Source: Microbacterium murale
Lineage (GTDB): Bacteria > Actinomycetota > Actinomycetes > Actinomycetales > Microbacteriaceae
DNA length: 64,000 nucleotides
Assembly (NCBI RefSeq): GCF_014635185.1
Contig: NZ_BMCM01000001.1
Location: forward strand, 744,001-808,000
Direction of reading: 5' to 3'
Below, piece by piece: positions 1,178 to 64,000 of this stretch. The notes below the pieces were generated by a model. The model was not told the origin of the DNA. It saw only the letters and a program-made list of their open reading frames with translations, and did not search any database. Position numbers and translations under genes: made by a program. Position 1 is the first letter of the stretch. Every line of letters starts with the position of its first letter.

Positions 1178-1362
1178 AGGAAGTGCCTTTCTGGAGGTGC
1201 TCACCGAGCGGCCCTCGCGACGCACAGCATCGGCGAGGGAAGGTGACGGTTTGCAGAAATTGGGGGGAGGATCGAGCTGCGGACTCGGTACTCAGCCTAA
1301 TGAGTTCGCCTCTCTTGCGGAACCGCGAGATGTCCCTGTCTGTGCCTGCGCGAGGTGCGCCG

Positions 1363-1391
1363 TTGCGACGACAGCGGATCGCACGGATAAA
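1363..1391 (+). promoter_or_regulatory. Probable vegetative promoter of the esterase gene
   Basis: TTGCGA at 1363-1368 and GATAAA at 1386-1391 are separated by 17 bp and lie 33 bp upstream of the start codon at 1424. The same -35 hexamer occurs at the uraD promoter in this window. No operator is obvious here. Confidence 0.4.
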
Positions 1392-1423
1392 CTGCCGCCG
1401 ACCCCCGAGAGAAGGATTCCGCA

Positions 1424-2395: not shown

Positions 2396-2398
2396 GAA

Positions 2399-2800: not shown

Positions 2801-2824
2801 GGGTCTCCTCTCGGCGTTCGTCGA

Positions 2825-3844: not shown

Positions 3845-3886
3845 GTGGTTCTCCTTCTTACTGTCAGTTCTTGGTCTTGGTCCTGC

Positions 3887-4645
3887 TCAGCCCCGCAGGG
3901 CGCGGATCCGCTCGAGGTCGGCGATGGCATCGGCCGGCTCCGAGTCGACTGGCATGTTGTCGGCATCCTTCGCCCCATCCAGCTCCACATCCGCGGCGAG
4001 CGCGGCGAACAGCGGGTCGAGGTCGGTCTGCGCCGGACCGCGCTCTGCCACGAGTTCCAAGGTCTTGCCGACGGCGGCATCCGACGTCAAAGCGGCCACC
4101 AGCACCTCGGCGATCTGTGATCGGGCGATCACGCCGTCCGCGGGGCTCTCCGCATGACGAGTGTCGCCCTGAAGGAAGTGCAGTTCGTGCTGGTCGTCGG
4201 CGTTGTAGTCGAACCATGCCGGGCGGACGATCGTGTACGGATGCCCGCTTGCGCGCACGAGCCGCTCGGCCCGCCGCTTCCAGTCGTGCGCTTTGTTCGA
4301 GCGATTGAATGCGCCGTCGCGGCCGGTCACGCCGATCGCGGTCATCTGCGCGATGCGCACCGGTCGGTCACCGATGGCCTCGAGGATGCCGCGCACACCG
4401 CCGTAGTCGACGTCGCGGTAGCCCGTCTCGTCGCCATGCGTGCCCTGAGTGAAGACGACGGCGTCGATGTCGCGGACGGCATCGACGAGCGTGGACGGGT
4501 CGGTGAGGTCGCCGACGACGGTGTTCTCGCCGCCGCCACGGCGACTGAGGATGCGGATGCTGTGGCCAGCCGCCTGTGCGACGCGGGCGACGTGCCGGCC
4601 GACGCTTCCGGTTCCGCCGACGAGGAGGATGTTCAGAGTGGTCAT
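3887..4645 (-). CDS. NAD(P)-binding atypical SDR (NmrA/NAD(P)H-binding family)
   Basis: The ATG at 4645 is chosen because the nucleotide-binding motif VGGTGSVGRHVA then starts at residue 8, as expected. The 252-residue protein has the Rossmann fold of atypical short-chain dehydrogenases but no Tyr-x3-Lys catalytic pair in the usual place. Members act as quinone reductases, epimerase-like enzymes or redox sensors. It lies 17 bp downstream of the FMN-binding lipoprotein gene in the same leftward operon. This placing among reductases and a pump suggests handling of an electrophile or quinone, which is inference. Confidence 0.85.
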   Translation of the reverse strand: MTTLNILLVGGTGSVGRHVARVAQAAGHSIRILSRRGGGENTVVGDLTDPSTLVDAVRDIDAVVFTQGTHGDETGYRDVDYGGVRGILEAIGDRPVRIAQMTAIGVTGRDGAFNRSNKAHDWKRRAERLVRASGHPYTIVRPAWFDYNADDQHELHFLQGDTRHAESPADGVIARSQIAEVLVAALTSDAAVGKTLELVAERGPAQTDLDPLFAALAADVELDGAKDADNMPVDSEPADAIADLERIRALRG

Positions 4646-45860: not shown

Positions 45861-46817
45861 TCAGCAGAACGAGCTGACCGCCTCCCACGCCGACGCCACC
45901 TCGGCCTGACCCTCACGGGTCACGGCCGCTTCGATCAGGCCGTACGAGCGATCGGAGGCGAAGAACACCTCATTGGGGTTGTCGAGACCGTAGGGCTCGA
46001 GATCGACGACGAAGTGATGCTTGTTGGGCATCGAGAAGCGGATCTCCGCGATCTCAGGATGTGCTGCGAGAACCGCGCGCCCCATGTCGAACAGCGTCGC
46101 CTGCAGCGCCGCCGAGTATTGCCGCGTGAACTCCTCCAGCAGGATGCGCTTCACATCCGCGTAGATCTCATTGAAGTCCAGATCGCGAGCATCGGCATCC
46201 TGGGCATACCGCCAGCGCGCCGAGACGTCGGTGGCGAGGATGCGGTCGGTAGTCTCCTTCAGCGACGTGTATCTGTCCTTCGGGAACCCGACGAATCCGG
46301 ACTGCGTGGTCTTGAGCACCGTCAGTCCCTTCAGCCCGGCGATGATGTGCCGCTCCGCCCCCTCGGCGACGACGACGGCCGTGCGCGTCTCTTGCCCCGA
46401 TCGGACGAAGGAATGGTCGTGCCCTTCGCCGTCGACCTGGATCCGATCCCACGCGTAGCTCTCAGCGAGCCAGCGTCCGCCCTCGACCCAGTCGAACGAG
46501 CTCGTGAAGTGGTCGGAGAGTCTCAACAGGAATGCCTCGGGCGAGCCGATCCCGTCGCGCGCGAACGAGAACACGGTGTTCTTCTGGGTGTCGGTCGCGA
46601 CGACGTGGCCGTTGTCGCCGTCGAGATGCGCGGCCTCGAAGTCGCCACGCAGCTGCGAGGTGACGTTGAGGTCTTCGATCGAATGCCGGTCGCCGTCTCT
46701 GGTGACCTTGACGACGCGGACCTCGGCCTTGCCGTACTGGTTCGGTCCGAGGATGATGCCGTCGTCAGGCGTCTCGGCGGCGGTCTCGGTCTGGCGGCGG
46801 GTCATGATGTCGGTCAT
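45861..46817 (-). CDS. uaZ: Urate oxidase (factor-independent urate hydroxylase)
   Basis: A 318-residue cofactorless uricase that turns urate and oxygen to 5-hydroxyisourate and hydrogen peroxide. Visible: YGKAEVRVVKV (catalytic Lys), VATDTQKNTVFSFA (catalytic Thr), SGFVGFPKDRYTSL, SMPNKHHFVVDL (catalytic His) and LDNPNEVFF. The two tunnel-fold repeats give the usual length. GAGGAAGTTAG before the ATG overlaps the uraH stop. It is third in the uraD-uraH-uaZ operon. A hairpin GGCTC...GAGCC at 45840-45854 follows the stop and faces the J-domain gene end. Confidence 0.95.
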   Translation of the reverse strand: MTDIMTRRQTETAAETPDDGIILGPNQYGKAEVRVVKVTRDGDRHSIEDLNVTSQLRGDFEAAHLDGDNGHVVATDTQKNTVFSFARDGIGSPEAFLLRLSDHFTSSFDWVEGGRWLAESYAWDRIQVDGEGHDHSFVRSGQETRTAVVVAEGAERHIIAGLKGLTVLKTTQSGFVGFPKDRYTSLKETTDRILATDVSARWRYAQDADARDLDFNEIYADVKRILLEEFTRQYSAALQATLFDMGRAVLAAHPEIAEIRFSMPNKHHFVVDLEPYGLDNPNEVFFASDRSYGLIEAAVTREGQAEVASAWEAVSSFC

Positions 46818-46821
46818 CGTT

Positions 46822-47166
46822 CTAACTTCCTCGGTAGGTCGAATATGCGAAGGGACTCAGCAGCAGCGGCACGTGATAGTGGCGCTGCTCGTCATCGACG
46901 ACGAAGGTGAGCACGACTTCGGGATAGAAGGTGGGGGTGTCGGTGCGGGCGAAGTACCCGCCGGTGTCGAAATGGAGCCGGTACGTGCCGGCGGGCACGG
47001 CCTCGGGGCCGAGCTGCTTCGCCCGGCCGTCGGCATCCGTGACGCCCTCGGCGATCAGCATCCATTCGCCATCCCGGAGCGCGGAGAGCACGACCGACAC
47101 GCCAGGAGCCGGCAGCCCCTGCACAGCATCGAGGACGTGGGTCGTGATGTGCGACACAGCAGTCAT
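46822..47166 (-). CDS. uraH: 5-hydroxyisourate hydrolase
   Basis: A 114-residue transthyretin-like protein, with THVLDAVQGLPA at the N-terminus and the terminal YRGS signature. It hydrolyses 5-hydroxyisourate to OHCU in the urate pathway. It overlaps uraD as ATGA (47163-47166) and is followed by uricase after 4 bp. All catalytic residues of the family (His in THVLD, Arg, His in YHVPL, and the YRGS tail) are visible. Confidence 0.94.
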   Translation of the reverse strand: MTAVSHITTHVLDAVQGLPAPGVSVVLSALRDGEWMLIAEGVTDADGRAKQLGPEAVPAGTYRLHFDTGGYFARTDTPTFYPEVVLTFVVDDEQRHYHVPLLLSPFAYSTYRGS

Positions 47167-47660
47167 GCGATGATCGTTCCTCTCAGTCGGAGCAATGCGA
47201 TCTCTCGCAGCTGCCCGGCGATGATCCGCTCTTCCGAGTCGGGGTCGTGCTGCAGGCGTTCCCGCAGACTCGATAGGATCTCTGCCGCGGTACGTCCGGC
47301 CGCACGGATCAGGAAGACCCGGCCGAAGCGCTCCTCGTACGTGAGATTGCCCTCACGAAGCGCCTGCTGCACGTCGGCGTCGGACGGGTCGACCCCGGCC
47401 TGCTCCGAGCGCGAGAGCGTCGCCTCTCTACTGTCCCCTCCCGCACGCTCGCCGATCCGAGGATGGTGAGCGAGGGCCGAATCGATCTCCTCGGTCGTGA
47501 ACGGATCGGCGGCCTGCGCCGCCGCCACCACGAGAGAGTCGACCGACTCGTAGGGACGGCGATCGACGATGTCTTCACACCATCGCGTCACGTCGATACA
47601 CGGCCGGAGCGCGGTGACGGCATCGCCCCGCTCCGCCAGATTGAATTGCTCAAGCAACAT
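47163..47660 (-). CDS. uraD: OHCU decarboxylase
   Basis: A 165-residue protein that decarboxylates 2-oxo-4-hydroxy-4-carboxy-5-ureidoimidazoline to S-allantoin. The catalytic His is in LAHHPRIGE; GNLTYEERFGRVFLIRAAGRTA is family-typical. It is the first gene of the uraD-uraH-uaZ operon. A clear TTGCGA-17-TATAAT promoter lies at 47785-47757 on the minus strand, with an IclR-like half-site in the leader. Confidence 0.93.
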   Translation of the reverse strand: MLLEQFNLAERGDAVTALRPCIDVTRWCEDIVDRRPYESVDSLVVAAAQAADPFTTEEIDSALAHHPRIGERAGGDSREATLSRSEQAGVDPSDADVQQALREGNLTYEERFGRVFLIRAAGRTAAEILSSLRERLQHDPDSEERIIAGQLREIALLRLRGTIIA

Positions 47661-47807: not shown

Positions 47808-48284
47808 TCATTTCAGCAGGGCATCCCGGAGACGGGCGACGTGCCCTTCAGGGTTGACGTTGTACTCCACGGACGAGATGACGCCGTCGGCATCGACCAC
47901 CGCTGTGGTGCGGATCAGACCATCGAACGTGCGGCCGTTCACCGTCTTCTGCCCCCAGGCACCCCATTCCTTGGCGACGGCGGAATCCTCGTCGGAGAGC
48001 AGCGGGAAGCTCAGCTGCTCGGCCTCCGCGAACTCCGCGAGCCTCGACACCGGATCGGGTGAGATCCCGAGCACCGTGTATCCGGCGCCCTGGAACGACC
48101 CGAGATTGTCGCGGAAGTCGCACGCCTCTGTGGTGCAGCCTGGCGTGAACGCCGCCGGGTAGAAGTAGACGATCACGGGTGTGCCGCGCAGCTCGGAGAG
48201 CGTGCGCTGGTTTCCGGATGCATCGGTGAGCGTGAAGTCCGGAGCCTTCTGGCCGACCTCGAGCTCTTCGGTTGAGTTGATCAT
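47808..48284 (-). CDS. bcp: Thioredoxin-dependent peroxiredoxin, BCP type
   Basis: A 158-residue peroxidase. Peroxidatic Cys50 and resolving Cys55 are in TPGCTTEAC, the atypical 2-Cys BCP arrangement; [10 protein letters not shown] is the active-site strand. It reduces hydrogen peroxide and organic peroxides with thioredoxin. Its ATG overlaps the stop of the kinase-allantoinase fusion gene as ATGA, so it is the last gene of the leftward glyoxylate operon. This place suggests it removes peroxide made by the nearby uricase (inference). Confidence 0.92.
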
Positions 48285-50827
48285 GCGGTTTCTCCATTCT
48301 CGATAGGTTCGGCGGTTCTCCGACTGGCCGGGTCTTCCCGACGCAGCAGCCGGCCGCGAGGCGCGTCGCTGTCGACCGGCACTCCGGCGAGGTAGGTCGT
48401 TCGCACGATACCCGTGAGCTGCTGCCCGTCATAGGGGGTGATCGGATGCCGGTGCGCGAGCCGCTTCGCGTCGACGGTGAATTTCTCCTCCGGGGCGAAG
48501 ACGGCGAAGTCGGCAGCTCCCCCCTCGACGATGCGGCCCTTGTCGACCAGACCGACCCGTGCGGCCGGCTTCTCGGCCATGAGCGACACGACTTGCTCGA
48601 GCAAAAACCCGCGCTCACGCGCATGCGTCCACACGAGCGGGAGCCCGAGCTGCAGCGAGGCGATGCCGCCCCACGCCAGCGAGAAGTCGCCGTCGCCGGC
48701 GAACTTCATCTCCGGCGTCGATGGCGAATGATCGGAGACGATGTAGTCGATGATCCCCTCCGACAGTCCGCGCCAGAGTTCTTCGCGATTGTCGCCCTCG
48801 CGAATCGGCGGACAGCACTTGAACGCGGTGCTCCCGTCGAGGATGTCTTCGGCGGTGAGGGTCAGGTAGTGCGGGCACGTCTCGACCGTGAGATCGACGC
48901 CGTCGGCACGCGCCGCGGCGATACGACTCAACGAATCGCCGTTCGACAGATGCAGGATGTGCGCGCGGACGCCGGTGTCCACGGCGCCCTGGATCACCTC
49001 GGCGATCGCCGCATCCTCCGCGGAGCGCGGTCGCGAGGCGAGGAATGGCGCGTATTCGCGGCTGCCCGGCTGCACGGACTCCTCGATGATGTGCGCGTCT
49101 TCGGCGTGCACGATCAGCAGCGAGTCGAGCTCGGCAAGCACCGCCATCGCCTCGCGCATCTCCGCCACCGATACCTCGGGGAACTCATCCACACCGGAAG
49201 GGAGCAGGAAGCACTTGAAGCCGTACACGCCCTCATCGTGCAGCGGGGCGAGTTCGGCGATGTTGCCGGGGATCACGCCGCCCCAGAAACCGACGTCGAC
49301 GAAGACGCGCCCCTCGGCCACGGCGCGCTTCTCGTCGAGAGCAGCGACAGAGACGGTGGGAGGGATGCTGTTGAGCGGCATGTCCACGATCGTCGTGACC
49401 CCACCCGCCGCCGCAGCCCTCGTGGCGGACTCGAAACCCTCCCACTCGGTGCGACCCGGCTCGTTGACGTGCACATGAGTGTCGACGAGCCCGGGCAGCA
49501 GCACCTCGTCGGCCGCGAGCTCGACGATCCGGTCGGCGTCGAGTCCGGTGCCGACTGCGCCGATGCGAGCGATACGACCACCCTGCACTCCGACCTCGGC
49601 CGCCACGAAGGTGCCGTCGATCAGGGCTCGTCCTCGGAGGACGAGATCGTAGCGCTGTGCGGGAGCGGACGATGCGGGCTCAGGCGTCGCGGGACCGACC
49701 GCCTCGAGGATGTCGCGCACCAGGCTCTCGGCGAGCTCTTCGAGCAGCGCCCCGGCCTCGGTCATGCTGCGCTGCGCATCGGGCTCCAGCTCCGACAGCG
49801 CACGCACCCCGGCGAAACCCGCATCCGAGATCGATTCGGCAGACAGCGTCGTCCGCCCGCACACGGCGTACACCGGCAGCCCGGCGACGGCGGCGGCCCT
49901 GGCGACGCCGACCGGGGTCTTCCCCATCAGGCTCTGCTCGTCGAGGCTTCCCTCGCCGGTGATGACGGCATCCGCTCCGTTGAGTTTCGCGGCGAGGCCG
50001 GTCTCTTCGAGCACGACGTCGACGCCCGCGCGTCGGGTCGCGCCGAGCGCGATGGCCGCGAACCCCACGCCACCGGCAGCGCCGGCGCCCTGTCGAACGG
50101 ATGCCTCGGCGGCCGGGACGGCGAGTCCGCCAGCGGCATCCAGCACTTCGACCAACCTCGAGAGACCGGCCTCAAGCGTGGCGACGTCTTCGGCAGTGGC
50201 GCCCTTCTGGGGACCGAACACCTCAGCGGCGCCCGTCGGCCCGGTCAACGGATTGTCCACGTCGCTCGCCAGGACGATCTCGGCGTCGGTCAGTCGCGCA
50301 TCCAGTGCGCTGAGATCCACAGATGCGAGACGCCCCAAAGCGGCACCTCCCGGCGGCAGCTCTTCGCCCTCCGCGTCGAGGAACCGCGCGCCGAGCCCCT
50401 GCAGCAGACCGGCCCCGCCGTCGGTCGATGCGCTGCCACCGATTCCGAGCACGATGCGCCGGCATCCGACATCCAGCGCCGCTCGGATGAGTTGACCGGT
50501 GCCGAGACTCGTCGCCCTGAGCGGGTCCTTCCGTCCTTCCAGCAGGTCGAGGCCGGACGCACGGGCCATCTCGACGACCGCCTCGTCACCGCGCACCGCG
50601 AACTCCGCCGAGATCTGCCCTCCGGTGGGTCCGGCGACGAGCGCGGTTCGCGATTCGAAGCCGGCGGCGAGCACAGCATCCAGAGTTCCCTCGCCTCCGT
50701 CGGCGACGGGAACGGTCACGACCTCGATCGCTGGATCCACGCGCCGCGCTCCCGAGGCGACCCTTTCGGCCACCTCGGGAGCCGTCAGCGACCCTTTGAA
50801 CTTGTCGGGGGCGATGACCAGACGCAT
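48281..50827 (-). CDS. Fused glycerate kinase and allantoinase
   Basis: One 848-residue frame with two full enzymes. Residues 1-377 are glycerate 2-kinase (GlxK/GarK type): [51 protein letters not shown]. Residues 378-391 are a Pro/Ala linker. Residues 392-848 are allantoinase of the dihydroorotase superfamily: metal His451 and His453 in [10 protein letters not shown], bridging Lys near 538 in GFKCF, His in VHAEDA and HLSNGD, Asp in VSDHSPS. Both lengths are complete. The kinase phosphorylates glycerate from the glyoxylate branch while allantoinase opens allantoin. ATG 50827 lies 1 bp after the gcl stop. The DNA across the linker shows no stop or frameshift. Confidence 0.92.
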
Positions 50828-50828
50828 C

Positions 50829-52625
<1,797 letters not shown>

Positions 52626-52654: not shown

Positions 52655-53533
52655 TCACTCGCGACCAGCGAATGCCGCGGTCAGCTTGAACAGCCCGGAG
52701 TGGTCGAGGCCGGCATCGCCCTGCTGCACGGCGGAGCCGACGAGCTGGGCCACGTGGGCGCCGAGCGGAATGGTGATGCCGGCCTGTCGTGCGGCGGCGG
52801 TGATGATGCCCATGTCCTTGTTGTGGAGGGCGAGTCGGAAGCCGGGGGCGAAGTCGCGATCGAGCATCTTCTGCCCCTTCTGGTCCAAGACCTTTGAGCC
52901 GGCGAGACCGCCGCCGAGCACCTTGAGCGCGGCATCCGTGTCGACGCCGAAGGCCTCGAGGAAGATGATCGCCTCGGCGAGCGCCTGGATGTTCACGGCG
53001 ACTATGAGCTGGTTCGCGGCCTTCACCGTCTGGCCCGCGCCCGCAGGTCCGACGTGGACGATCGTCTTTCCGACCGACTGGAGGATCTCGAGAGCTGCGG
53101 CGAAGTCGTCGTCGGTTCCGCCGACCATGATCGACAGCACGGCGTCGATCGCCCCCTGCTCTCCACCCGAGACGGGAGCGTCGACGGCGCGGAGGCCGGC
53201 GGCGATCGCCTCGTCGGCGAGTTCCTTGGCGACATCGGGGCGGATGCTGGACGCATCGATCCACAGCGCCCCATTCTTGGCGTGCGCGAAGATGCCTTCT
53301 TCGCCGCGGACGGCGGCTGCGACATCCGGGGAGTCCGGCACCATCGTGATGATGACGTCGGCGTCCTTCACGGCTTCAGCGATTCCGCTCGCGCCCTGGC
53401 CGCCCGCGGCGACGAGTTCGTCGATCCGGTCCTTGCTCAGGTTGTATCCGGTGACGGAGTGTCCGGCGGCGATGAGGTTCTTGGCCATGGGAAGGCCCAT
53501 GATGCCGAGGCCGATGACTGCGATGTTGCTCAT
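52655..53533 (-). CDS. glxR: Tartronate semialdehyde reductase
   Basis: A 292-residue beta-hydroxyacid dehydrogenase (2-hydroxy-3-oxopropionate reductase) that reduces tartronate semialdehyde to glycerate. NAD motif: AVIGLGIMGLPMAKNL; substrate motif DAPVSGGEQGA; catalytic Lys in VKAANQLIVAVNIQA. ATG at 53533 begins the NAD-binding fold directly. It lies between hyi and gcl, the standard order of this pathway. Confidence 0.94.
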   Translation of the reverse strand: MSNIAVIGLGIMGLPMAKNLIAAGHSVTGYNLSKDRIDELVAAGGQGASGIAEAVKDADVIITMVPDSPDVAAAVRGEEGIFAHAKNGALWIDASSIRPDVAKELADEAIAAGLRAVDAPVSGGEQGAIDAVLSIMVGGTDDDFAAALEILQSVGKTIVHVGPAGAGQTVKAANQLIVAVNIQALAEAIIFLEAFGVDTDAALKVLGGGLAGSKVLDQKGQKMLDRDFAPGFRLALHNKDMGIITAAARQAGITIPLGAHVAQLVGSAVQQGDAGLDHSGLFKLTAAFAGRE

Positions 53534-53585: not shown

Positions 53586-54389
53586 TCAGCGCGTTTCGCC
53601 GACGGCCTGTGCCGCCCACGCGAATGCGGTCTCGATCGGCGCCTTGTATTCGAGGCCGATGTAGCCGGAGTAGCCGAGCTCCTGGCTCCGCGTGATCCAG
53701 GCATCGATGGGCAGTGAGCCCGTTCCTGGTGCGCCGCGCCCGGGGGCATCCGCGATCTGGATATGGCCGAACGAAGCGGCGTGCTCTTCGATGACCTGCG
53801 GCACATCGTCGCCGTTGACCGCGAGGTGATAGAAGTCGGCGAGCAGCGCGAGGTTGCGCGCGCCCGTCGAGGTACGCACGTGCGCGATCACGTCCAGCGC
53901 ATGCGCCGCGGTGCGCAGCGGGTAGCGCTCGGCGCCGCTGACCGGCTCGACCAGCACGGTGCCCCCAATGGCAGCGACGGCCTCGGCCGCGGCGGCGAGG
54001 TTCTCGATCGCCACGGCGTCCTGGGCGGCCGGATCGATGCTGGGGATGCGGTTGCCGTAGAGCGCGTTGAAGCCCTTGGTGCCGAGCGCACCGCCGATGC
54101 CGACGACGACGGCCAGATTGTCGCGGAACTCCTTGCCGCGCGACGGCCAGGAGACGAGGCCGCGGTCGCCGTTCGGCATGTCGCCGGCGTTGAAATTCAG
54201 ACCGGTCAACTGCACACCGGCGTCGCGGATGGCGGCGATGAACGCGTCGACCTCGTGGTCGAGCGGCACGGAGGTGGAGAACGGCCACCAGAACTCGACC
54301 GCGTCGAATCCGGCGGCCTTCGCCGCGGCCGGGCGCTCGAGCAGCGGGAGCTCGGTGAGAAGGATCGAGCAGTTCACCGTGTACGTCAT
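53586..54389 (-). CDS. hyi: Hydroxypyruvate isomerase
   Basis: A 267-residue TIM-barrel isomerase of the AP endonuclease 2-like fold that interconverts hydroxypyruvate and tartronate semialdehyde. Typical text: NCSILLTELPLLERPAAAKAAGFDAVEFWWPF, GTVLVEPVSG, LADFYHLAVNG, HIQIADAPGRGAPGTG with metal-binding Glu, Asp and His. ATG 54389 is chosen at the start of the barrel. It is first of five genes (hyi, glxR, gcl, kinase-allantoinase, bcp). Promoter and IclR-type operator stand just before it. Confidence 0.92.
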   Translation of the reverse strand: MTYTVNCSILLTELPLLERPAAAKAAGFDAVEFWWPFSTSVPLDHEVDAFIAAIRDAGVQLTGLNFNAGDMPNGDRGLVSWPSRGKEFRDNLAVVVGIGGALGTKGFNALYGNRIPSIDPAAQDAVAIENLAAAAEAVAAIGGTVLVEPVSGAERYPLRTAAHALDVIAHVRTSTGARNLALLADFYHLAVNGDDVPQVIEEHAASFGHIQIADAPGRGAPGTGSLPIDAWITRSQELGYSGYIGLEYKAPIETAFAWAAQAVGETR

Positions 54390-54416
54390 TTCGACTCCTT
54401 CGTCGCGTGAGATGGT

Positions 54417-54431
54417 TTCCATATTGTGGAA
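54417..54431. promoter_or_regulatory. IclR operator at the hyi operon promoter
   Basis: TTCCATATTGTGGAA is a palindrome with perfect TTCCA/TGGAA arms and a 5-bp centre. It lies 28-42 bp before the hyi start and about 14-28 nt after the expected transcription start, so binding would block elongation or initiation. It matches sites at aceB, iclR and xdhA. Confidence 0.75.
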
Positions 54432-54527: not shown

Positions 54528-54579
54528 GAAGAAGAGTTTGCGGGGTTTCCGGGCTGGGGGAGCCCCAAAAGTCTTCTTC
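54528..54579. repeat. Palindromic element copy 1 (upstream of DUF559 gene)
   Basis: GAAGAAGAGTTTGCGGGG (54528-54545) is imperfectly inverted by CCCCAAAAGTCTTCTTC (54563-54579), with an inner GGGCT/AGCCC stem. The left arm and centre resemble copy 2 at 55709-55758 in the same orientation (about 22 of 26 bases). Confidence 0.6.
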
Positions 54580-54729
54580 GCTCCGCGGTGGATGGCGACG
54601 GGGCCGGGCTGGGCGCGAGGGCTGGTGGGTGCGGGCGACTTGGCCTGCACGAAGTGGGATCGGAAGGGGTTCTGCACCGGTCGCGCCGATCGCAGAATGC
54701 CGGCTCCTTCTCGTACGCGAACATCAGGG

Positions 54730-55653
54730 ATGCGACAGAAGGTCCGACTGCACCGACGCCTGGGCGATGCGTTCTCCGTCGCGAGCGCCGCGGCCGCCGG
54801 TATCGGCTCTGACCGGCTTCGCGCTCGCGAACTGCACCGCCCGTTCCGCGGCGTTCGCTCGATCGAGGCGCCGGAGACGTTCCAGGAGTACCTGGGCTGC
54901 TACGCCCCTCGCCTGAAGTCGGGCCAACGGTTCGGAGGCATCACAGCGGCGCGGGACTGGGGCCTCCCGCTCCCCTCGGAATGGACTCCGAAAGAGCCGC
55001 TCGAGGTCGTCGTCACGTCATCCGCAGCTCCGCCGAAGATTCGAGGAGTACGTGGACGCCGTCTTCGCGAGAACCGCGCCACGACGTTCACTCTCAGAGG
55101 GCATCCCGTCGTCGACCCCGTCGCCGCATTGTTCATGTGCGTCGGGGAACTCACTGTCACGCAGTCGGTCGTGATGCTCGATGCGCTGTTGACGACGGCA
55201 TCCAACTATCCCGATCTCGGTCCCGGAAGGCCGCTGAGCACGCGAGATGAGATCTCCCGACGACTCGAAGAATGGGGGAAGTTTCCCGGATGCGGAACGA
55301 TCCGCGCCGCACTGTGGCGCGCCCGCGAGAGGGTGGAATCGCCGAAGGAGACCGAGACCCGTCTGCTGCTCGTCGACAGCGGGCTGCCCGAGCCCAGCGT
55401 GCAGCATGAGGTGTGGGCCGATGGGCGGCTCCTCGGCCGAACCGACCTCGCCTACCCTGAGCAGCGGATCGCGTTCGAGTACGAGGGCGACGGCCACCGC
55501 ACGGACAAGGACCAGTGGCGCAAGGACATCCAGCGGCAGCGGCATCTCGAGGGTCAGGGGTGGATCGTGATCCGCCTCACCCAGGCCGACCTCGACGAGC
55601 CGGAGCTGCTGGTCGCCAGCATCCGGCGCGCGATGGCCGCCCGCCGCAGGTGA
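54730..55653 (+). CDS. DUF559-domain protein (Vsr-like endonuclease fold)
   Basis: A 307-residue protein from ATG 54730. The C-terminal 100 residues are DUF559: ESPKETETRLLLVDSG, HEVWADGRLLGRTDLAYPEQRIAFEYEGDGHR, RQRHLEGQGWIVIRLTQADL, with the Asp, Glu and Glu/Asp positions of the Vsr/PD-(D/E)xK nuclease fold. The N-terminal part (RAREL, GITAARDWGLPLP) is the AbiEi-like domain often fused to it. Many actinobacteria carry such genes, with function unknown. The start is uncertain, and the gene interrupts the purine cluster on the opposite strand, bracketed by two similar hairpins. Confidence 0.72.
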   Translation: MRQKVRLHRRLGDAFSVASAAAAGIGSDRLRARELHRPFRGVRSIEAPETFQEYLGCYAPRLKSGQRFGGITAARDWGLPLPSEWTPKEPLEVVVTSSAAPPKIRGVRGRRLRENRATTFTLRGHPVVDPVAALFMCVGELTVTQSVVMLDALLTTASNYPDLGPGRPLSTRDEISRRLEEWGKFPGCGTIRAALWRARERVESPKETETRLLLVDSGLPEPSVQHEVWADGRLLGRTDLAYPEQRIAFEYEGDGHRTDKDQWRKDIQRQRHLEGQGWIVIRLTQADLDEPELLVASIRRAMAARRR

Positions 55654-55811: not shown

Positions 55812-56651
55812 TCAGCCCCAGGGTCGCGGATCCGCACCACGGGTCAGCATGACCTGGCGGTTGACGTCCTTGTAGAGCAGGTACCGGAACGGTCCGGGTC
55901 CCCCCGCATAACAGGCCTGCGGGCAGAAGGCGCGCAGCCACATGAAGTCGCCCGCCTCCACCTCGACCCAGTCGTCGTTGAGCCGGTACACGGCCTTGCC
56001 CTCGAGCACGAAGAGGCCGTGCTCCATGACGTGCGTCTCGGCGAACGGGATCGATCCGCCGGGCTGGAACGTCACGATGTTGACGTGCATGTCGTGCGAC
56101 AGGTCATCCGGATCGACGAAGCGCGTCGTCGCCCATGCCCCGTCGGTGTCCGGCATCTCGCGCGGAGTGACGTCCTGGTCGCGCGTGACGAACGACTTCG
56201 GCGGCTCGATGCCCTCCGCGCGTTCGTACGCCTTGCGGATCCAGTGGAACGACGTCGTCCCCGCGCCGTCGTTCGACAACGACCACGCCTCCCCCGGCGC
56301 GATGAACGCATAACCGCCTTCGGCGAGAACGTGCGACTCTCCGGCGAGAGTCAGCGTCAGCTCTCCCGCCGTGACGAACACGACGCCCTCGACGCCGGCC
56401 TCCGGCTCGGGGCGGGAAGCTCCGCCGCCCGGCTGGATCTCGACGATGAGCTGCGAGAACGTGGTGGCGAATCCTGCGATCGGACGGGCGATGATCCACG
56501 AGCGCGTCTTCGAGAAGCCGGGCAGGTTGCTCGTGACGATGTCGCGGAAGACGCCTTTGGGGATGACCGTGTACGCCTCTTTGACGATGGCGCGATCCGT
56601 GAGCAGCGTGCTCTGATCCGGCAGACCGCCGGCTGGCGTGTAGTAGCCCAT
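55812..56651 (-). CDS. allE: (S)-ureidoglycine aminohydrolase
   Basis: A 279-residue bicupin that releases ammonia from S-ureidoglycine to give S-ureidoglycolate, after allantoate hydrolysis. YYTPAGGLPDQSTLLTDRAIV at the start and KGVFRDIVTSNLPGF are family-typical. Manganese is held by the C-terminal cupin: ETHVMEHGLFVLEGKAVYRL and the later AFCPQACYAGG. It is last of the aceB-DUF6986-allE operon, 33 bp after DUF6986. The enzyme that supplies ureidoglycine, allantoate amidohydrolase, is not in this window. Confidence 0.92.
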   Translation of the reverse strand: MGYYTPAGGLPDQSTLLTDRAIVKEAYTVIPKGVFRDIVTSNLPGFSKTRSWIIARPIAGFATTFSQLIVEIQPGGGASRPEPEAGVEGVVFVTAGELTLTLAGESHVLAEGGYAFIAPGEAWSLSNDGAGTTSFHWIRKAYERAEGIEPPKSFVTRDQDVTPREMPDTDGAWATTRFVDPDDLSHDMHVNIVTFQPGGSIPFAETHVMEHGLFVLEGKAVYRLNDDWVEVEAGDFMWLRAFCPQACYAGGPGPFRYLLYKDVNRQVMLTRGADPRPWG

Positions 56652-56684: not shown

Positions 56685-57953
56685 TCAGGCGCGGGCGAGA
56701 GCGTGGTCGGCGAGCCGAGGGTGAGCGAGTGCGGTGAGCGCGTCGACCCGGATGCCGATGTCGGCAGTCACCTCGTCCGCGTCGATCGCCCCGCACTGCA
56801 CTCCGCGGAGCACGAACCACGCCAGCGCCCGCGCCGTGGCCGGCTCGTCCATGACAGCGCCCTCTTCTTGCGCGAGGTAGGTGCGCAACCGCGACGCAGC
56901 GTCGGTATACCCGTCGCGATAGAACGCGTAGGTGGCGAGATAGCGCGTGGCCAACTGGTGCGGATGCAGGTCCCAGCCCTGATAGAAGCCGCGTTCGAGC
57001 GAGCGCCGCACGAGTCGCGCGTGCAGCGACCATGCCTCGGCCGCGCGCTCGCCCACCGGCAGGATGTTGGTCGAGCCGTCAGAGAGTCGGATGCCGGTGC
57101 CTGCGACCGCGAGCTGCATGACCTGCTTCGCGAGATCGGCGGCCGGATGCTCCATCGACTGATACTCCGCGGCGATGCCGAGCGAGGCACTGTAGTCGTA
57201 GGTGCCGTAGTGCAGACCAGAGATGCGGCCCGGGGCGACGACGGGCAACTGCGCCAGCGGCGAGCGCCCGTCGGCCCCGAGCACGAGCTGGGGCGTCTCG
57301 ACCTGCACTTCGAAGCGCAGACGTCCGGCATCCAGTCCGTGTGCACGCTCGAGAGCCGCCACGGCGATGACCATCGCCTCCACCTGCGCGGTCGTCGTCA
57401 CCTTCGGCAGGGTGAGCACCAGACCGTCGGGCAGACCGCCGGCCTCGAGCAGACCGCCGATGAACCGATCGAGAGTGCGAAGGCCGCGGGCACGCGTCGG
57501 CTTCTCGAAGCATTTGAAGCGGATGCCGATGAAGGGCGGAGCCGACCCGGATGCCACGGCATCCGACACCTTCGACGCGGCCATCGCGACATCCGTGTCT
57601 TCCGCGTCGCCGCGATCGCCGTAGCCGTCCTCGAAATCGAGTCGCAGGTCTTCGATCGGCTCCGTGGCGAGCTTGCGCGCCACCCTACCGGCCACATCGC
57701 CGATGAGACCGGGCTCGATGCCGACCTGAGCGGCGAGGTTCTCCATCCCACCGGCCGCCTCGACCGCGGCGAGCGCCTGCGCACCCCACTGCGAGGCGAG
57801 ATCCGGCGTGAACCGATCCGCGGGAACGTAGACGGTGTGAACAGGCTGACGCGCACCGCTGTCACCCGGATAGACCGTGTCGAGGAGGTCGTCCGTCGCG
57901 GCGAGGTGCTGATCGATCTTCGCCATGTCGGCGTCGCTGAGTCCGTTGCTCAT
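56685..57953 (-). CDS. DUF6986 protein, HpcH/HpaI aldolase-like
   Basis: A 422-residue TIM-barrel protein distantly related to citrate lyase beta and malyl-CoA lyase. RLDFEDGYGDRGDAEDTD includes the metal-binding acidic cluster; RFEVQVETPQLVLG is the second Glu site; GLHYGTYDYSASLGIA recalls the CitE substrate loop. It overlaps the malate synthase stop as ATGA and precedes allE. The coupling with malate synthase suggests an aldol or lyase reaction on glyoxylate- or malate-like acids, which is inference. No function is established. Confidence 0.8.
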   Translation of the reverse strand: MSNGLSDADMAKIDQHLAATDDLLDTVYPGDSGARQPVHTVYVPADRFTPDLASQWGAQALAAVEAAGGMENLAAQVGIEPGLIGDVAGRVARKLATEPIEDLRLDFEDGYGDRGDAEDTDVAMAASKVSDAVASGSAPPFIGIRFKCFEKPTRARGLRTLDRFIGGLLEAGGLPDGLVLTLPKVTTTAQVEAMVIAVAALERAHGLDAGRLRFEVQVETPQLVLGADGRSPLAQLPVVAPGRISGLHYGTYDYSASLGIAAEYQSMEHPAADLAKQVMQLAVAGTGIRLSDGSTNILPVGERAAEAWSLHARLVRRSLERGFYQGWDLHPHQLATRYLATYAFYRDGYTDAASRLRTYLAQEEGAVMDEPATARALAWFVLRGVQCGAIDADEVTADIGIRVDALTALAHPRLADHALARA

Positions 57954-59572
57954 GCGGGCACCGTTGCGGCGGCATCCGTGAGCAACTCGTATGCCGGCAG
58001 GGTCAGGAAGTCGACGTACTCGTCGTCGAGGCAGATCTGCGAGATCAGGCGGGCCGCGGGCTGGTAGTGGTTCTCGAATTCCTCGTCACTGACGTCACCA
58101 GCGATCTTCGAAACCTCTTCGGCCAGCAGACGCTGCACGAGGTCAGGGGTCACTTGCTCGCCGGTATCGGCGAGTGGGGTGCCGTTACGCAGCTGCTGCC
58201 AGATCTGCGAGCGCGAGATCTCGGCGGTCGCAGCATCCTCCATGAGGTTGTTGATCGCGACCGCACCGTTGCCGGAGAGCCACACCGCGGTGTACGTGAT
58301 GGCGACGGCGAGATTGGTGCGCAGGCCGGCCTCCGTCGCGCTTCCGGATGCCGACGTCACGTCGAGCAGCTCATCGGCAGTGACGGACACCTCGGGGCGC
58401 TGGCGATCGAGCTGATTGGGACGCTCGCCGAGCACGGCGTCGAAGACCTCGCGGCAGATCGGGACGAGGTCGGGATGTGCGACCCACGATCCGTCGAAGC
58501 CGTCGCCGGCCTCACGCGTCTTGTCGGCGTGGACCTTGGCGAAGGCAGCCTCGGTCGCCTCCACATCTTTGCGGTTCGGCACGAAAGCGGCCATGCCGCC
58601 CATTGCGACGGCGCCGCGCCGGTGACAGGTCTTGACGAGCAGCTCGGTGTAGGCGCGCATGAACGGTGCGGTCATCGCGACGTCGGCGCGGTCTGGGAGG
58701 CTGAATGCCTCACCCTGGTCGCGGAAGACCTTGATCAGGCTGAACAGGTAGTCCCAACGTCCGGCGTTGAGACCCGAGGCGTGGTCGCGGAGTTCGTAGA
58801 GGATCTCGTCCATCTCGAAGGCCGCAGGGATGGTCTCGATCAGCACCGTGGCGCGGATCGTCCCCTGAGGGATGCCGAGAGCATCCTGAGCATGCACGAA
58901 CACATCGTTCCACAGTCGCGCTTCACGGTGGCTCTCGAGTTTCGGCAGGTAATAATACGGACCGTGTCCGTTGGCGATGAGCTGGCGGGCGGTGTGGAAG
59001 AAGTGCAGCCCGAAGTCGACGAGCGACGCACTGGCGCGTTCGCCGTCGATCAGCACGTGACTCTCGGAGAGATGCCAGCCCCTGGGCCGCGCGACCACGG
59101 TGGGACGGTGCACATCCGTGCGCAGGGCATACGGCTTTCCTGCGGGCGACGTGTAGGCAAGCGTGCCGCGGGCGGCATCGCGGAGGTTCCGCACGCCTTC
59201 GATGACGTTCTCCCAGGTGGGGCTCGAGGCGTCTTCGAGGTCGGCGAGCCAGACGCGTGCCTCTGAGTTCAGCGCGTTGATCGCCATCTTCGCGGGAGCG
59301 GCGGGGCCGGTGATCTCGACTCGACGGTCTTCCAGCGCGGCCGGCGCTGCCGCGACCTGCCAGTCCGCCTCGCGGATATGGGCGGTCTCTGCCAGGAAAT
59401 CGAGGCGCCCCGTGCGGGCGACCTGCTCGCGGCGCAGCTGGCGTGCGAGGAGCAGTTCGCGCCGTCTGGTGTCGAATTCACGGTGCAGGTCTTCCACGAA
59501 ACGGAGTGCGTCTGCGGTGAGGATGTCGTCCGCCGCGTCGATGCGGGGCTGACGTGTGATCTGGATGGTCAT
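57950..59572 (-). CDS. aceB: Malate synthase A
   Basis: A 540-residue enzyme that condenses glyoxylate and acetyl-CoA to malate. AINALNSEARVWLADLEDASSPTWENVI, ATVLIETIPAAFEMDEILYELRDHASGLNAGRWDYLFS, and GSWVAHPDLVPICREVF are family-typical, with catalytic Arg, Glu, Asp in place. ATG 59572 follows AGAAGGGGTCGC. It is first in aceB-DUF6986-allE and divergent from the IclR regulator. It offers the second exit for glyoxylate besides carboligase; no isocitrate lyase is nearby, so it serves purine-derived glyoxylate here. Confidence 0.95.
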   Translation of the reverse strand: MTIQITRQPRIDAADDILTADALRFVEDLHREFDTRRRELLLARQLRREQVARTGRLDFLAETAHIREADWQVAAAPAALEDRRVEITGPAAPAKMAINALNSEARVWLADLEDASSPTWENVIEGVRNLRDAARGTLAYTSPAGKPYALRTDVHRPTVVARPRGWHLSESHVLIDGERASASLVDFGLHFFHTARQLIANGHGPYYYLPKLESHREARLWNDVFVHAQDALGIPQGTIRATVLIETIPAAFEMDEILYELRDHASGLNAGRWDYLFSLIKVFRDQGEAFSLPDRADVAMTAPFMRAYTELLVKTCHRRGAVAMGGMAAFVPNRKDVEATEAAFAKVHADKTREAGDGFDGSWVAHPDLVPICREVFDAVLGERPNQLDRQRPEVSVTADELLDVTSASGSATEAGLRTNLAVAITYTAVWLSGNGAVAINNLMEDAATAEISRSQIWQQLRNGTPLADTGEQVTPDLVQRLLAEEVSKIAGDVSDEEFENHYQPAARLISQICLDDEYVDFLTLPAYELLTDAAATVPA

Positions 59573-59593
59573 GCGACCCCTTCTGTCATGTGG

Positions 59594-59623
59594 ATAATAA
59601 CCTCCACAATACGGAAGTTTCAA
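59594..59623 (-). promoter_or_regulatory. Promoter and IclR-type operator of the aceB operon
   Basis: On the minus strand TTGAAA (59623-59618), 18-bp spacer, TATTAT (59599-59594). The operator TTCCGTATTGTGGAG (59616-59602) fills the spacer and differs from the hyi operator at only two of 15 positions. Confidence 0.65.
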
Positions 59624-59668
59624 GAGCACGCCCGATTCGCTGATGGGATAGCCTGATCGGGAAGTCCT

Positions 59669-59683
59669 TTCCACCATGTGGAT
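59669..59683. promoter_or_regulatory. IclR-type operator before the iclR gene
   Basis: TTCCACCATGTGGAT has the TTCCA-N5-TGGAA pattern with one mismatch, 27 bp before the ATG at 59710. It suggests autoregulation. Confidence 0.55.
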
Positions 59684-59709
59684 AAGTGTCGAAGTCGAGA
59701 GGTTTCTCA

Positions 59710-60465
59710 ATGCCCGCTGCAGCATCCGACGGCGTGAAGTCCGTCACCCGGGTCTTCGACCTGCTCGAACTCATCGCCGACGCCGGCGGGGACGTCACCC
59801 TCAGTGAACTGTCCGCGTCAGCCGAACTGCCGCTGCCCACGATCCACCGGCTGCTACGGACGCTCGTCTCTCTCGGCTACGCCCGCCAGCTCGCGAACAG
59901 GCGCTACGCCCTCGGCCCTCGACTGGTGCGACTCGGCGAGGCCGCGAACCGCAAGTTCGGCCGGATCGCCATGCCGCAGCTCAAGGACCTCGTCGAGCGA
60001 CTCGGCGAGACGTCGAACCTCGCCACGATCGACGGTGACCGCGTGATCTACGTGTCGCAGGCGCCGTCTCCGCACGCGATGCGCATGTTCACCGAGGTGG
60101 GCCGGCGCTCGTACCTGCACTCCACCGGTGTCGGCAAGGCGATCCTCGCGCAGATGAGCGATGACGCCGTCCGCGACATCGTCTCCCGCACAGGGATGCC
60201 GCGTGACACCGAGCATTCGCTCGCCACCATCGACGCGCTGCTGGCCGACCTCGCTGTGACGCGCGAGCGCGGCTACGCGATCGACGACGGCGAGCAGGAG
60301 ATCGGTGTGCGCTGCTACGCCATGGCGGTGCCCGACATGCCCACGCTCACGGCGGTCTCGGTCTCCGGCCCTGTCGCCCGCGTCGACGAGGGCTTCGCCG
60401 AGCGGGCCATTCCCGTGCTGCGCGAGGTCGTCGCCGAGATCTCCGCGCTCTCCAGCGCGACCTGA
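59710..60465 (+). CDS. IclR-family regulator of the purine/glyoxylate genes (AllR-like)
   Basis: A 251-residue IclR protein. The N-terminal winged helix (LSELSASAELPLPTIHRLLRTLVSLGYARQ) binds DNA and the C-terminal domain (STGVGKAILAQMSDD; GEQEIGVRCYAMAVPDM) binds a small acid. In Escherichia coli, AllR of this family senses glyoxylate and allantoin. The ATG is set by GAGAGG 8 nt before it; a GTG at 59686 is less likely. It is divergent from aceB and convergent in function with xdh. TTCC(A/G)-N5-TGGAA palindromes at the hyi, aceB, iclR and xdhA promoters are the likely targets. Confidence 0.88.
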   Translation: MPAAASDGVKSVTRVFDLLELIADAGGDVTLSELSASAELPLPTIHRLLRTLVSLGYARQLANRRYALGPRLVRLGEAANRKFGRIAMPQLKDLVERLGETSNLATIDGDRVIYVSQAPSPHAMRMFTEVGRRSYLHSTGVGKAILAQMSDDAVRDIVSRTGMPRDTEHSLATIDALLADLAVTRERGYAIDDGEQEIGVRCYAMAVPDMPTLTAVSVSGPVARVDEGFAERAIPVLREVVAEISALSSAT

Positions 60466-60826: not shown

Positions 60827-62293
60827 ATGAATGACATCGCCGTCAACGTAAACGGAAAGAGCCGCCCGCTCACGGGCGCTCCTGCACACACCACCGCCCT
60901 CGACTGGCTCCGCGGTGCCGGACTCTCGGGCGCCAAAGAAGGCTGCGCCGAGGGGGAATGCGGCGCCTGCGCGGTGCTTCTGGCCACGCCGACCCCCGAA
61001 GGCGGCACCGCGTGGACCTCGGTGAACTCCTGCCTCGTGCCCGTCTACGCACTCAACGGCCAGGAGGTCATCACCTCTGAAGGATTGGGCAGCCCTGACG
61101 CACTGCACCCAGTGCAGGACAAGCTCGCCGAAGCCGGCGGCTCGCAGTGCGGCTACTGCACTCCCGGGTTCGTCTGCAGCATGGCGGGCGAGTACTACCG
61201 CGACGGTCGCGAAGCAGTGGTCGAGAGCGCCGACGAGGAATGCCCTGTCCACGACGGCGAGCACGGACCGAACGGATTCGACCTGCACGCGCTCAGCGGC
61301 AATCTCTGCCGGTGCACCGGTTACCGCCCGATCCGCGACGCCGCCTACGCACTCGGTTCGCCCGAGAGCGATGATCCCCTGCTGCAGCGCCTCGCCGACC
61401 CGGCGCCCCTCCCGGTCGCCACGGCGGCCACCGTCGATGGCTCCCGCTTCATCCGCCCGGCGTCCTTCGACGAGACCCTGCGCCTGCTGCGGGACGAACC
61501 GGATGCTCTGCTCGTCGCAGGCTCCACGGATTGGGGCGTCGAGGTCAACATCCGCGGCTCCCGGGCGCCCCTCGTCGTCGCGATCGAACACCATGAAGAG
61601 CTGCGCAGGCTCGTCGTCACCGACGACGAGATCGAGATCGGCGCCGCACTGCCGCTGTCCGAGATCGAGTCGCGCCTCGGCGGCACAGTTCCGCTGCTCG
61701 CACAGCTGTTCCCGCAGTTCGCCTCCCGACTGATCCGCAACCGCGGAACCATCGGCGGCAACCTCGGCACCGGATCGCCGATCGGCGACACTCCCCCGGC
61801 ACTGCTGGCTCTCGGCGCCCACGTGGTGCTGACGTCCGCTGACGGCGAGCGCGAAGTCGACCTCGCCGAGTACTTCACGGGCTACCGCCAGTCCGTCAGA
61901 CGCGCAGACGAGCTGATCCGCGCCGTGCGCATCCCTCGACCGCTCGCGAAGGTGACCTCGTTCCAGAAGATCGCCAAGCGCCGCTTCGATGACATCTCCA
62001 GCGTCGCGGTCGCGTTCGCCCTCGACATCGAGGACGGCGTCGTCACGGCGGCGAAGATCGGACTCGGCGGTGTCGCAGCCACCCCGTTGCGCGCTCGCGC
62101 GACGGAAGACGCCCTGGTCGGGCAGCCATGGAATGTCGGCACCGTCCGCGCAGCATCCGAGATCCTCGGCGGTGAGGGCACCCCGATGTCCGACCACCGC
62201 GCGAGTTCGGAATACCGCGCGCTCATGCTCAACACCGCGCTGCTCAAGCTTTACAGCACGACCGTCCTCGACAACAAGGAGGTGTCGGCATGA
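60827..62293 (+). CDS. xdhA: Xanthine dehydrogenase small subunit (FeS and FAD)
   Basis: A 488-residue subunit. The plant-type [2Fe-2S] cluster is bound by Cys40, 45, 48 and 69 (KEGCAEGECGAC; NSCLV), the second by Cys107, 110, 160 and 162 (SQCGYCTPG; GNLCRCTGYRP). A 25-residue insert lies between the two pairs of the second cluster. Residues 205-488 bind FAD (LVAGSTDWGVEV; RNRGTIGGNLGTGSPIGDTPP). It passes electrons from the molybdenum site to NAD. The stop overlaps the large-subunit start as ATGA. IclR-type operators control the operon. Confidence 0.94.
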   Translation: MNDIAVNVNGKSRPLTGAPAHTTALDWLRGAGLSGAKEGCAEGECGACAVLLATPTPEGGTAWTSVNSCLVPVYALNGQEVITSEGLGSPDALHPVQDKLAEAGGSQCGYCTPGFVCSMAGEYYRDGREAVVESADEECPVHDGEHGPNGFDLHALSGNLCRCTGYRPIRDAAYALGSPESDDPLLQRLADPAPLPVATAATVDGSRFIRPASFDETLRLLRDEPDALLVAGSTDWGVEVNIRGSRAPLVVAIEHHEELRRLVVTDDEIEIGAALPLSEIESRLGGTVPLLAQLFPQFASRLIRNRGTIGGNLGTGSPIGDTPPALLALGAHVVLTSADGEREVDLAEYFTGYRQSVRRADELIRAVRIPRPLAKVTSFQKIAKRRFDDISSVAVAFALDIEDGVVTAAKIGLGGVAATPLRARATEDALVGQPWNVGTVRAASEILGGEGTPMSDHRASSEYRALMLNTALLKLYSTTVLDNKEVSA

Positions 62294-64000
62294 GTGCTCT
62301 CGCCGACCGTCCAGCCAACCCCGTCGTCGGAATCCGCGCCCCGCACGAGAGCGCCGCCCTGCATGTGACGGGCGCCGCGATGTACACCGACGACCTCGCC
62401 GCCCACACCGCCGGCGTGCTCACCGCCTGGCCGGTGCAGTCCACCAACGCCCACGCCAAGGTCACGATCGACGTCTCGGGCGCCTACGAGGTGCCGGGCG
62501 TCGTCCGCGTGCTCACCGCCGACGACGTGCCCGGCGTCAACGACGCGGGCATCAAGCACGACGAACCGCTGTTCCCCGACGAGGCGATGTTCTACGGCCA
62601 CGCCCTCGTCTGGGTGCTCGGCGAGACGCAGGAGGCAGCGCGCCTCGGCGCCGCGGCCGTCAAGGTCGAATACGAGCCACTTCCGTCACTGATCACGATT
62701 CAGGATGCCGTCGACGCCGACTCCTTCCAGGGCATCGCGCGCACGGTCGAACGTGGGGATGCGGCATCCGCTCTGGCATCCGCGGCGCACGTCTTCGAGG
62801 GTGTGAGCGAGTTCGGCGGCCAGGAGCACTTCTATCTCGAGACGCAGGCGTCGTTCGCGAAGATCGACTCCGAGGGTCAGTACTTCGTGGAGTGCTCGAC
62901 GCAGCATCCGTCCGAGACGCAGGAGATCGTCGCGCACGTGCTCGACCTCTCCTCGAACCAGGTCACCGTGCAGTCGCTGCGCATGGGCGGCGGGTTCGGC
63001 GGCAAGGAGATGCAGTCGCACGGTTTCGCGGCGATCGCCGCACTCGGCGCGAAGCTCACCGGTCGGCCGGTGCGGCTGCGCCTGAACCGCACGCAGGACA
63101 TCACGATGACCGGCAAACGGCACCCCTTCCACATCTCGTGGAAGGTCGGCTTCGACGCCGATGGTCTGCTGCAGGGCCTGGATGCCGTGCTCACCTGCGA
63201 CGGTGGATGGAGCCTCGACCTGTCCGAGCCGGTGCTCGGCCGCGCGCTCTGCCACCTCGACAACGCGTATTGGATTCCCAACGTGCACGCGCTCGGGCGG
63301 ATCGTGAAGACCAACAAGGCGTCGAACACGGCGTTCCGCGGATTCGGCGGCCCGCAGGGCGTGTTCCTCATCGAGGACATCCTGGGCAGGGTCGCTCCCG
63401 CGCTCGGCATCGACGCGCTCGCGCTGCGCGAGAAGAACTTCTACCAGCCTGGTCAGAGCACGCCGTACGGCCAGCTCGTGAAGGATGCTGATCGCCTCGG
63501 CACCATCTGGAATCAGCTGCACGACGAGGCAGACATCGACGAGCGTCGGGCGGAGATCGCTCGGTTCAACGCCGGCAGCCCGCACTCCAAGCGCGCACTC
63601 ACGATGACGCCGATCAAGTTCGGCATCTCGTTCAACTTCGCCGCCTTCAACCAGGCCGGCGCGCTCGTGCACGTCTACAAGGACGGCTCGGTGCTGATCA
63701 ACCACGGCGGCACCGAGATGGGCCAGGGCCTGCACACCAAGATGCTGCAGGTCGCCGCGACCGCACTGGGCCTCGAGATGCATCAGGTGCGCCTCGCTCC
63801 AACCCGCACCGACAAGGTGCCCAACACCTCGGCCACTGCGGCATCCTCGGGCGCCGACCTCAACGGCGGTGCGGTCAAGAACGCGTGCGAGCAGATCAGG
63901 GAGCGGATGGCTGCGGTCGCAGGGCGCCTGCTGAATGTCGACGAGCGCGATGTGCGCTTCTCGGGTGGTCTGATCACGGGTCTCGGCAACACGTCGCAGA
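62290..64000 (+). CDS. xdhB: Xanthine dehydrogenase molybdopterin subunit, 3' end beyond window
   Basis: The first 570 residues of the large subunit are visible; the normal length is about 750-800. The aldehyde-oxidase fold begins TGAAMYTDDLAAHTAGVL. Molybdopterin-binding segments are QEHFYLETQASFA, GGGFGGKEMQSH, NTAFRGFGGPQGVFLIE and GGTEMGQGLHTKMLQVAA. It oxidises hypoxanthine and xanthine to urate at the molybdenum cofactor. The reading frame is open to the end of the window. Accessory genes such as xdhC are expected further on. Confidence 0.94.
   Translation, partial: MSALADRPANPVVGIRAPHESAALHVTGAAMYTDDLAAHTAGVLTAWPVQSTNAHAKVTIDVSGAYEVPGVVRVLTADDVPGVNDAGIKHDEPLFPDEAMFYGHALVWVLGETQEAARLGAAAVKVEYEPLPSLITIQDAVDADSFQGIARTVERGDAASALASAAHVFEGVSEFGGQEHFYLETQASFAKIDSEGQYFVECSTQHPSETQEIVAHVLDLSSNQVTVQSLRMGGGFGGKEMQSHGFAAIAALGAKLTGRPVRLRLNRTQDITMTGKRHPFHISWKVGFDADGLLQGLDAVLTCDGGWSLDLSEPVLGRALCHLDNAYWIPNVHALGRIVKTNKASNTAFRGFGGPQGVFLIEDILGRVAPALGIDALALREKNFYQPGQSTPYGQLVKDADRLGTIWNQLHDEADIDERRAEIARFNAGSPHSKRALTMTPIKFGISFNFAAFNQAGALVHVYKDGSVLINHGGTEMGQGLHTKMLQVAATALGLEMHQVRLAPTRTDKVPNTSATAASSGADLNGGAVKNACEQIRERMAAVAGRLLNVDERDVRFSGGLITGLGNTSQ

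Follow-up and report, generated by a model that had tools for sequence, protein, structure and literature searches.

A single gene on the minus strand of a 64,000-nucleotide stretch of the Microbacterium murale genome (hereafter the window) very probably encodes one genuine bifunctional enzyme, in which a glycerate kinase (GlxK) runs on into an allantoinase (AllB), and which would serve an operon leading from urate and allantoin to 2-phosphoglycerate. A sequence-only reading of this DNA had placed such a fusion at 48281..50827. We found its coordinates, strand and content to be right: one frame carries GlxK and AllB profile matches, both above their cut-offs. The gene and its parts are as follows.

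48281..50827, minus strand: glxK-allB fusion gene, 848 aa, 87.4 kDa
49709..50818, minus strand: glycerate kinase domain (PF02595/TIGR00045), residues 4-373
49655..49696, minus strand: linker of 14 residues, residues 378-391
48344..49648, minus strand: allantoinase AllB domain (TIGR03178), residues 394-828

The open reading frame listing gives a minus-strand frame at 48281-50866 that stays open for 861 codons (861 aa). Translation probably starts at the ATG of 50825-50827, which is residue 14 of that frame and has an AAGG stretch upstream, as judged by eye; the resulting 848-residue chain has a computed mass of 87,413 Da. The kinase half matches Pfam Gly_kinase at 416.8 bits (cut-off 23.3) over profile positions 2-371 of 372, and TIGR00045 at 368.7 bits (cut-off 168.45), while the allantoinase half matches TIGR03178 at 547.8 bits (cut-off 357.85). 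These profiles, and a reading of the 14-residue linker that found no stop codon in it, agree with the earlier description of two complete enzymes from non-consecutive steps, which a Pro/Ala linker connects without a stop.

The residues expected of working enzymes are also in place. The kinase half holds all of the motifs APDxFKxS, ADGGEGT, GGSAxxDGG, FGPQKGA and GEGxxDxQSxxGK, names which we chose from our own alignment; several of these patterns match 41 to 59 of its 61 rows, depending on the motif, and the rows that miss are unfused or Kocuria sequences. One motif reads GEGSLD here, as in all 15 of the fused proteins aligned, versus GEGRID in Salmonella GlxK (3cwc). Allantoinases bind two metals through a His-x-His pair, a carboxylated Lys, two further His and an Asp. 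The equivalents in the allantoinase half are H451, H453, K538, H574, H626 and D699, and its HVH, GFK, VHA, HILH and SDH segments align to 3e74, 8hfd and 3hm7 with the metal ligands intact; the carboxylated ligand of E. coli AllB is Lys146, according to PMC10163214. Judged by codon substitution, both halves are under purifying selection (NG86 dN/dS of 0.083-0.193 across both halves; 8 pairs, 16 values). In an AF2 model of the 848-residue protein, both domains are mostly above 90 pLDDT.

When compared with solved structures, most of whose matches fall on the amidohydrolase half, the fusion resembles two known families. It is homologous over its full kinase length to the class II glycerate 2-kinases GlxK and GarK (3cwc, 1to6), keeping their motifs at 40% identity to 3cwc, but its C-terminus runs on into allantoinase. 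Conversely, unlike the AllB proteins (3hm7, 3e74, 8hfd), its AllB domain is joined at the N-terminus to a kinase and has no free start codon.

The putative operon around the fusion is given below, together with the divergent genes next to it.

45861..46817, minus strand: uox, uricase
46822..47166, minus strand: probable uraH, 114 aa, from reading of the frame, ending in YRGS, which we take to be a uraH motif
47163..47660, minus strand: uraD, OHCU decarboxylase, by profile match
47808..48284, minus strand: bcp peroxiredoxin, its ATG overlapping the fusion stop (ATGA)
50829..52625, minus strand: gcl, glyoxylate carboligase, ending 1 nt ahead of the ATG of the fusion
52655..53530, minus strand: glxR, tartronate semialdehyde reductase, in a frame extending to 53806, with the start assumed at MSNIAVIG
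53586..54422, minus strand: hyi-like hydroxypyruvate isomerase (TIGR03234, 237.0 bits, below its cut-off)
55812..56651, minus strand: AllE-like cupin (NF040771, 479.3 bits, cut-off 350)
56685..57953, minus strand: DUF6986, HpcH/HpaI aldolase-like, by profile match
57950..59725, minus strand: aceB, malate synthase A, probably starting further inside this frame
59686..60465, plus strand: IclR-type regulator, divergent
60827..63999, plus strand: xanthine dehydrogenase xdhA/xdhB, the second gene extending past the window edge

Judged by content, this gene set appears to be a purine (urate)-to-glycerate operon that places the fusion beside most of its partners in the pathway, and the fused species share the order hyi-glxR-gcl-[GlxK-AllB]-bcp-uraD-uox. 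Within such a pathway, the AllB half would open allantoin to allantoate, and the GlxK half would phosphorylate the glycerate that the same substrate yields several reactions further on, with the AllC, AllE, AllA, Gcl and GlxR steps falling in between (pathway knowledge, and the introduction of PMC10163214). Because the two steps are non-consecutive, direct channelling is not expected between them, and we rejected substrate channelling on pathway order. Dihydroorotase and aspartate transcarbamoylase catalyse consecutive steps. GlxK and AllB differ in this from that pair (Aquifex complex 3d6n; CAD), and by pathway knowledge the fused domains lack the consecutive reactions that characterise CAD.

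The sequence-only reading had also held that the fusion fixes the two activities at a 1:1 ratio. The chain is single by sequence, and the tether would force co-production of GlxK and AllB, with four kinases per allantoinase tetramer if AllB is tetrameric as in E. coli. The claim loses some of its force because the genome also carries a separate second gene for glycerate kinase (48% identity; G000:C1:305789-306853). The fusion is present in this genome in one copy, and other AllB-like matches reach at most 32% identity.

Among the titles and abstract openings listed for the open-access PMC literature, none names a GlxK-AllB fusion, which fits the unfamiliarity expressed in the sequence-only reading. 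The words fusion and fused are absent from the main text of PMC10163214 and from PMC11166783, and in the matching passages of PMC12535856 "fusion" refers to lacZ reporters. It is unusual for two non-consecutive enzymes to be fused, and here the fusion unites the same pair that has been reported to interact in E. coli.

The taxonomic spread of GlxK-AllB chains, a check that the sequence-only reading had proposed, covers three genera and a further candidate lineage. A single-frame fusion is present in at least 11 of 367 Microbacterium genomes, the M. murale genome included, at 71-100% identity; 30 loci were fetched for the first reading of this genus. None of 35 further Microbacterium places with long AllB frames was fused (8 adjacent unfused pairs, 27 with AllB only), these places having been chosen by eye because their frame stayed open for roughly 700 aa or longer or their match extended into GlxK, along with a few shorter frames, and one of them (G174) being a locus already read as L031. 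The second AllB of G026 is not fused. The sister genus Agromyces has the fusion in 11 of 60 genomes: the 34 genomes that matched at E 1e-170 were all read, giving 11 fused, 23 with AllB only, sitting behind allE, and no adjacent unfused pair. Within the Kocuria genus set (g119), 7 of 35 genomes gave a match and one (G1532) is fused, its junction matching the one in Kocuria massiliensis (L041) exactly.

Beyond these genera, full-span stop-free matches were found in 3 of 398 genomes of the family, 3 of 396 of the order and 2 of 394 of the class, all within fusions already counted. In addition to the 3 of 398, the family sample holds a further candidate fusion in the lineage of G435 (L122), where GlxK and AllB share one frame, the linker resembles intergenic DNA and GlxK carries a low-complexity insert. 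Rows of the genome search undercount fusions, as both G1532 and G435 gave an AllB match only and were recognised on reading the loci; the scan of named relatives covered the best 80 of 402, and fusions elsewhere may be missed. A match in a plasmid collection, from Nonomuraea, was rejected as a fusion, the genes being adjacent and separate.

Unfused glxK and allB keep the same gene order in other Micrococcales and beyond. They lie adjacent but separate in Glutamicibacter, Paeniglutamicibacter, Arthrobacter, Actinotalea, Georgenia, Lentzea, Umezawaea and others, and 5 of the 19 unfused junctions read show a 4-nt start-stop overlap. At one locus (L157, in G272) the GlxK stop overlaps the point where a decayed remnant of AllB begins, which could be either a state before fusion or the decay of one. 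In two Agromyces (L037 5995-9156, plus strand; L180 frame 1-4623, plus strand) the frame runs on from AllB into Bcp as a three-enzyme chain, with a Bcp-like ATG start still inside. Three Agromyces with a solo AllB (L186, L190, L241) have it in a single open frame with UraD. These cases show how neighbouring genes of a compact operon become multidomain chains, of two domains as in M. murale and of three in two Agromyces.

Frame-joining of neighbouring glxK and allB is the probable origin of the fusion, because relatives have the two genes side by side and 5 of 19 of their junctions overlap by 4 bases. The short junction between the co-transcribed genes would have come into frame, or its stop would have disappeared, and the same would have happened again in Kocuria. 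In a GlxK tree of 47 rows, the 22 Microbacterium and Agromyces fusions fall into one clade (97/95) together with a single solo row, while the Kocuria fusion groups with unfused Kocuria-like genes. A single clade of all 23 fusions was rejected on this tree (p-AU 1.2e-83), which rules out a single origin of all fusions; by these sequences, the Kocuria fusion is independent of that in Microbacterium and Agromyces. The AllB tree (58 rows) places the 22 fusions in a clade of 35 rows (100/98) together with 13 solo AllBs at three places. These nested solo AllBs lie directly behind allE, with no preceding hyi-glxR-gcl-glxK block. Within Microbacterium and Agromyces, the sequences fit either one gain and three losses of the kinase block or several gains, and the GlxK tree favours one gain. 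Same-genome duplicates were removed before the first trees, and L185 and 14 loci read late were left out.

One account of what, if anything, the fusion brings to the cell is neutral operon compaction, in which a short junction was lost by chance in a high-GC, tightly packed operon with no functional gain. This account shares the bifunctional enzyme with our preferred reading and differs from it on benefit; under it, the fusion would persist because both halves fold independently. A neutral origin fits the data at least as well as a regulatory benefit does, and we rate it just short of an even chance. Several observations are consistent with it. Linker length and sequence are unconserved across the fused clade, the distance from GEG to AllB spanning 85 to 122 residues within Microbacterium and Agromyces. 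The AF2 models also suggest a flexible tether in the M. murale protein, where linker residues 381-388 fall below 50 pLDDT and the domain orientation is poorly defined: pTM is 0.62 in this monomer with its floppy linker, versus 0.77 in a short-linker orthologue (L011) that has no residue below 50. Because solo AllBs are nested in the fused clade, AllB there needs no fused kinase.

Neighbouring junctions bear on the neutral account from both sides. Across 171 loci, adjacent pairs were in one frame for GlxK-AllB in 24 of 75, AllB-Bcp in 2 of 32 and AllB-UraD in 2 of 12, as against 0 of 65 for gcl-GlxK, 0 of 42 for hyi-glxR, 0 of 41 for glxR-gcl and 0 of 33 for DUF6986-allE; these counts describe and do not test, because the pairs share ancestry and the fusion itself was the query that retrieved the loci (24 known duplicate loci were left out, and some genomes across the two collections may still coincide). 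The joining of AllB in frame to Bcp or UraD in Agromyces (L241 being additional to the two UraD cases counted) suggests that stops are lost without functional logic. Natural fusion is the pattern that the "Rosetta stone" argument predicts for true partners. That argument is weakened because the same operon joins AllB in frame to unrelated neighbours. On the other side, and descriptively, GlxK-AllB is the commonest joint, it has a separate origin in Kocuria and perhaps also in G435, and its two members are reported to interact in E. coli (PMC10163214).

The most plausible benefit, if there is one, may be regulatory, the fusion being an E. coli-like pair made permanent. By this account the GlxK half would keep AllB in a high-affinity state and make ring opening responsive to glyoxylate, amounting to the E. 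coli complex in covalent form; we regard it as a tentative reading, and the less likely course. Its starting point is PMC10163214, in which E. coli GlxK is reported to co-precipitate with AllB and the Km of the zinc form (AllB_Zn) for allantoin drops from over 15 to 2.8 mM with GlxK and 1 mM glyoxylate. The same two enzymes are physically associated in the E. coli complex and in the fusion. They differ in that the E. coli association is non-covalent and glyoxylate-dependent, whereas the Microbacterium pair is covalent by sequence; and in that E. coli allB and glxK are separated by ybbY in annotated copies, whereas the Microbacterium pair is one frame. The recurrence of the GlxK-AllB fusion, and the confidence with which the short linker of L011 is modelled, speak for a regulatory tether. 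Against it stand the wide variation of the linkers, the solo AllBs of close kin, and the nature of the precedent: the interaction rests on one 2023 study in a distant phylum, the effect on the manganese form (AllB_Mn) with glyoxylate is modest (Km 5.8 +/- 1.2 mM without GlxK and 3.8 +/- 0.9 mM with it), and the interface, docked at the inter-subunit cleft of AllB, was judged poorly conserved in that study itself (PMC10163214, with the Km values in its Table 2).

A stronger version, in which the kinase half is a built-in glyoxylate sensor that switches AllB to high affinity, and in which the GlxK-AllB contact is ancient, selected and repeatedly made covalent, strikes us as speculative and rather doubtful. 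Close relatives that carry the pair fused or adjacent, or AllB alone, amount to a natural experiment on the regulation of allantoinase by GlxK beyond E. coli.

It is improbable that the gene yields two proteins in practice, through cleavage of the chain or additional translation of AllB from an internal start. High-GC frames are more easily open by chance, and the junctions of some fused orthologues (e.g. L006, L007, L008) hold start-like codons. In the M. murale gene, however, the last GlxK helix contains an in-frame GTG, and the next in-frame ATG, GTG or TTG is a GTG that lies 16 codons inside the AllB domain, which leaves none in the linker and makes a separately initiated AllB unlikely. 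The frame has also been kept through much change in linker length: among 22 fused proteins of Microbacterium and Agromyces, rows that were picked for being fused, the distance from the GlxK motif to AllB takes 15 different values, which implies at least 14 length changes, every one of them in frame. No intact, adjacent, out-of-frame glxK/allB pair was found inside the Microbacterium/Agromyces fused clade among the loci read. A sequencing or assembly artefact can be dismissed, since the same single frame recurs in 21 other assemblies from two genera.

Returning to the pathway between the two fused activities, we found no match to AllA (ureidoglycolate lyase, PF04115) in the genome, while the E. 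coli control matched, and no clear AllC, the three TIGR01879 matches all falling below cut-off. A search for allantoicase (PF03561) was uninformative, as it returned no matches, controls included; the NF040771 profile passed by the AllE-like cupin is named "bifunctional allantoicase/(S)-ureidoglycine aminohydrolase". The DUF6986 gene (56685-57953, minus strand) and allE form 33 adjacent pairs across the loci read. Its product could be the ureidoglycolate-cleaving enzyme that the genome otherwise lacks; the name DUF6986 was not found in the open-access PMC literature. Between hyi and allE, an endonuclease-like open reading frame lies on the opposite strand (54538-55653, plus strand) with a weak MTES_1575 match below cut-off, and a gap similar in size to this region is present at three other loci (L164, L171 and L172).
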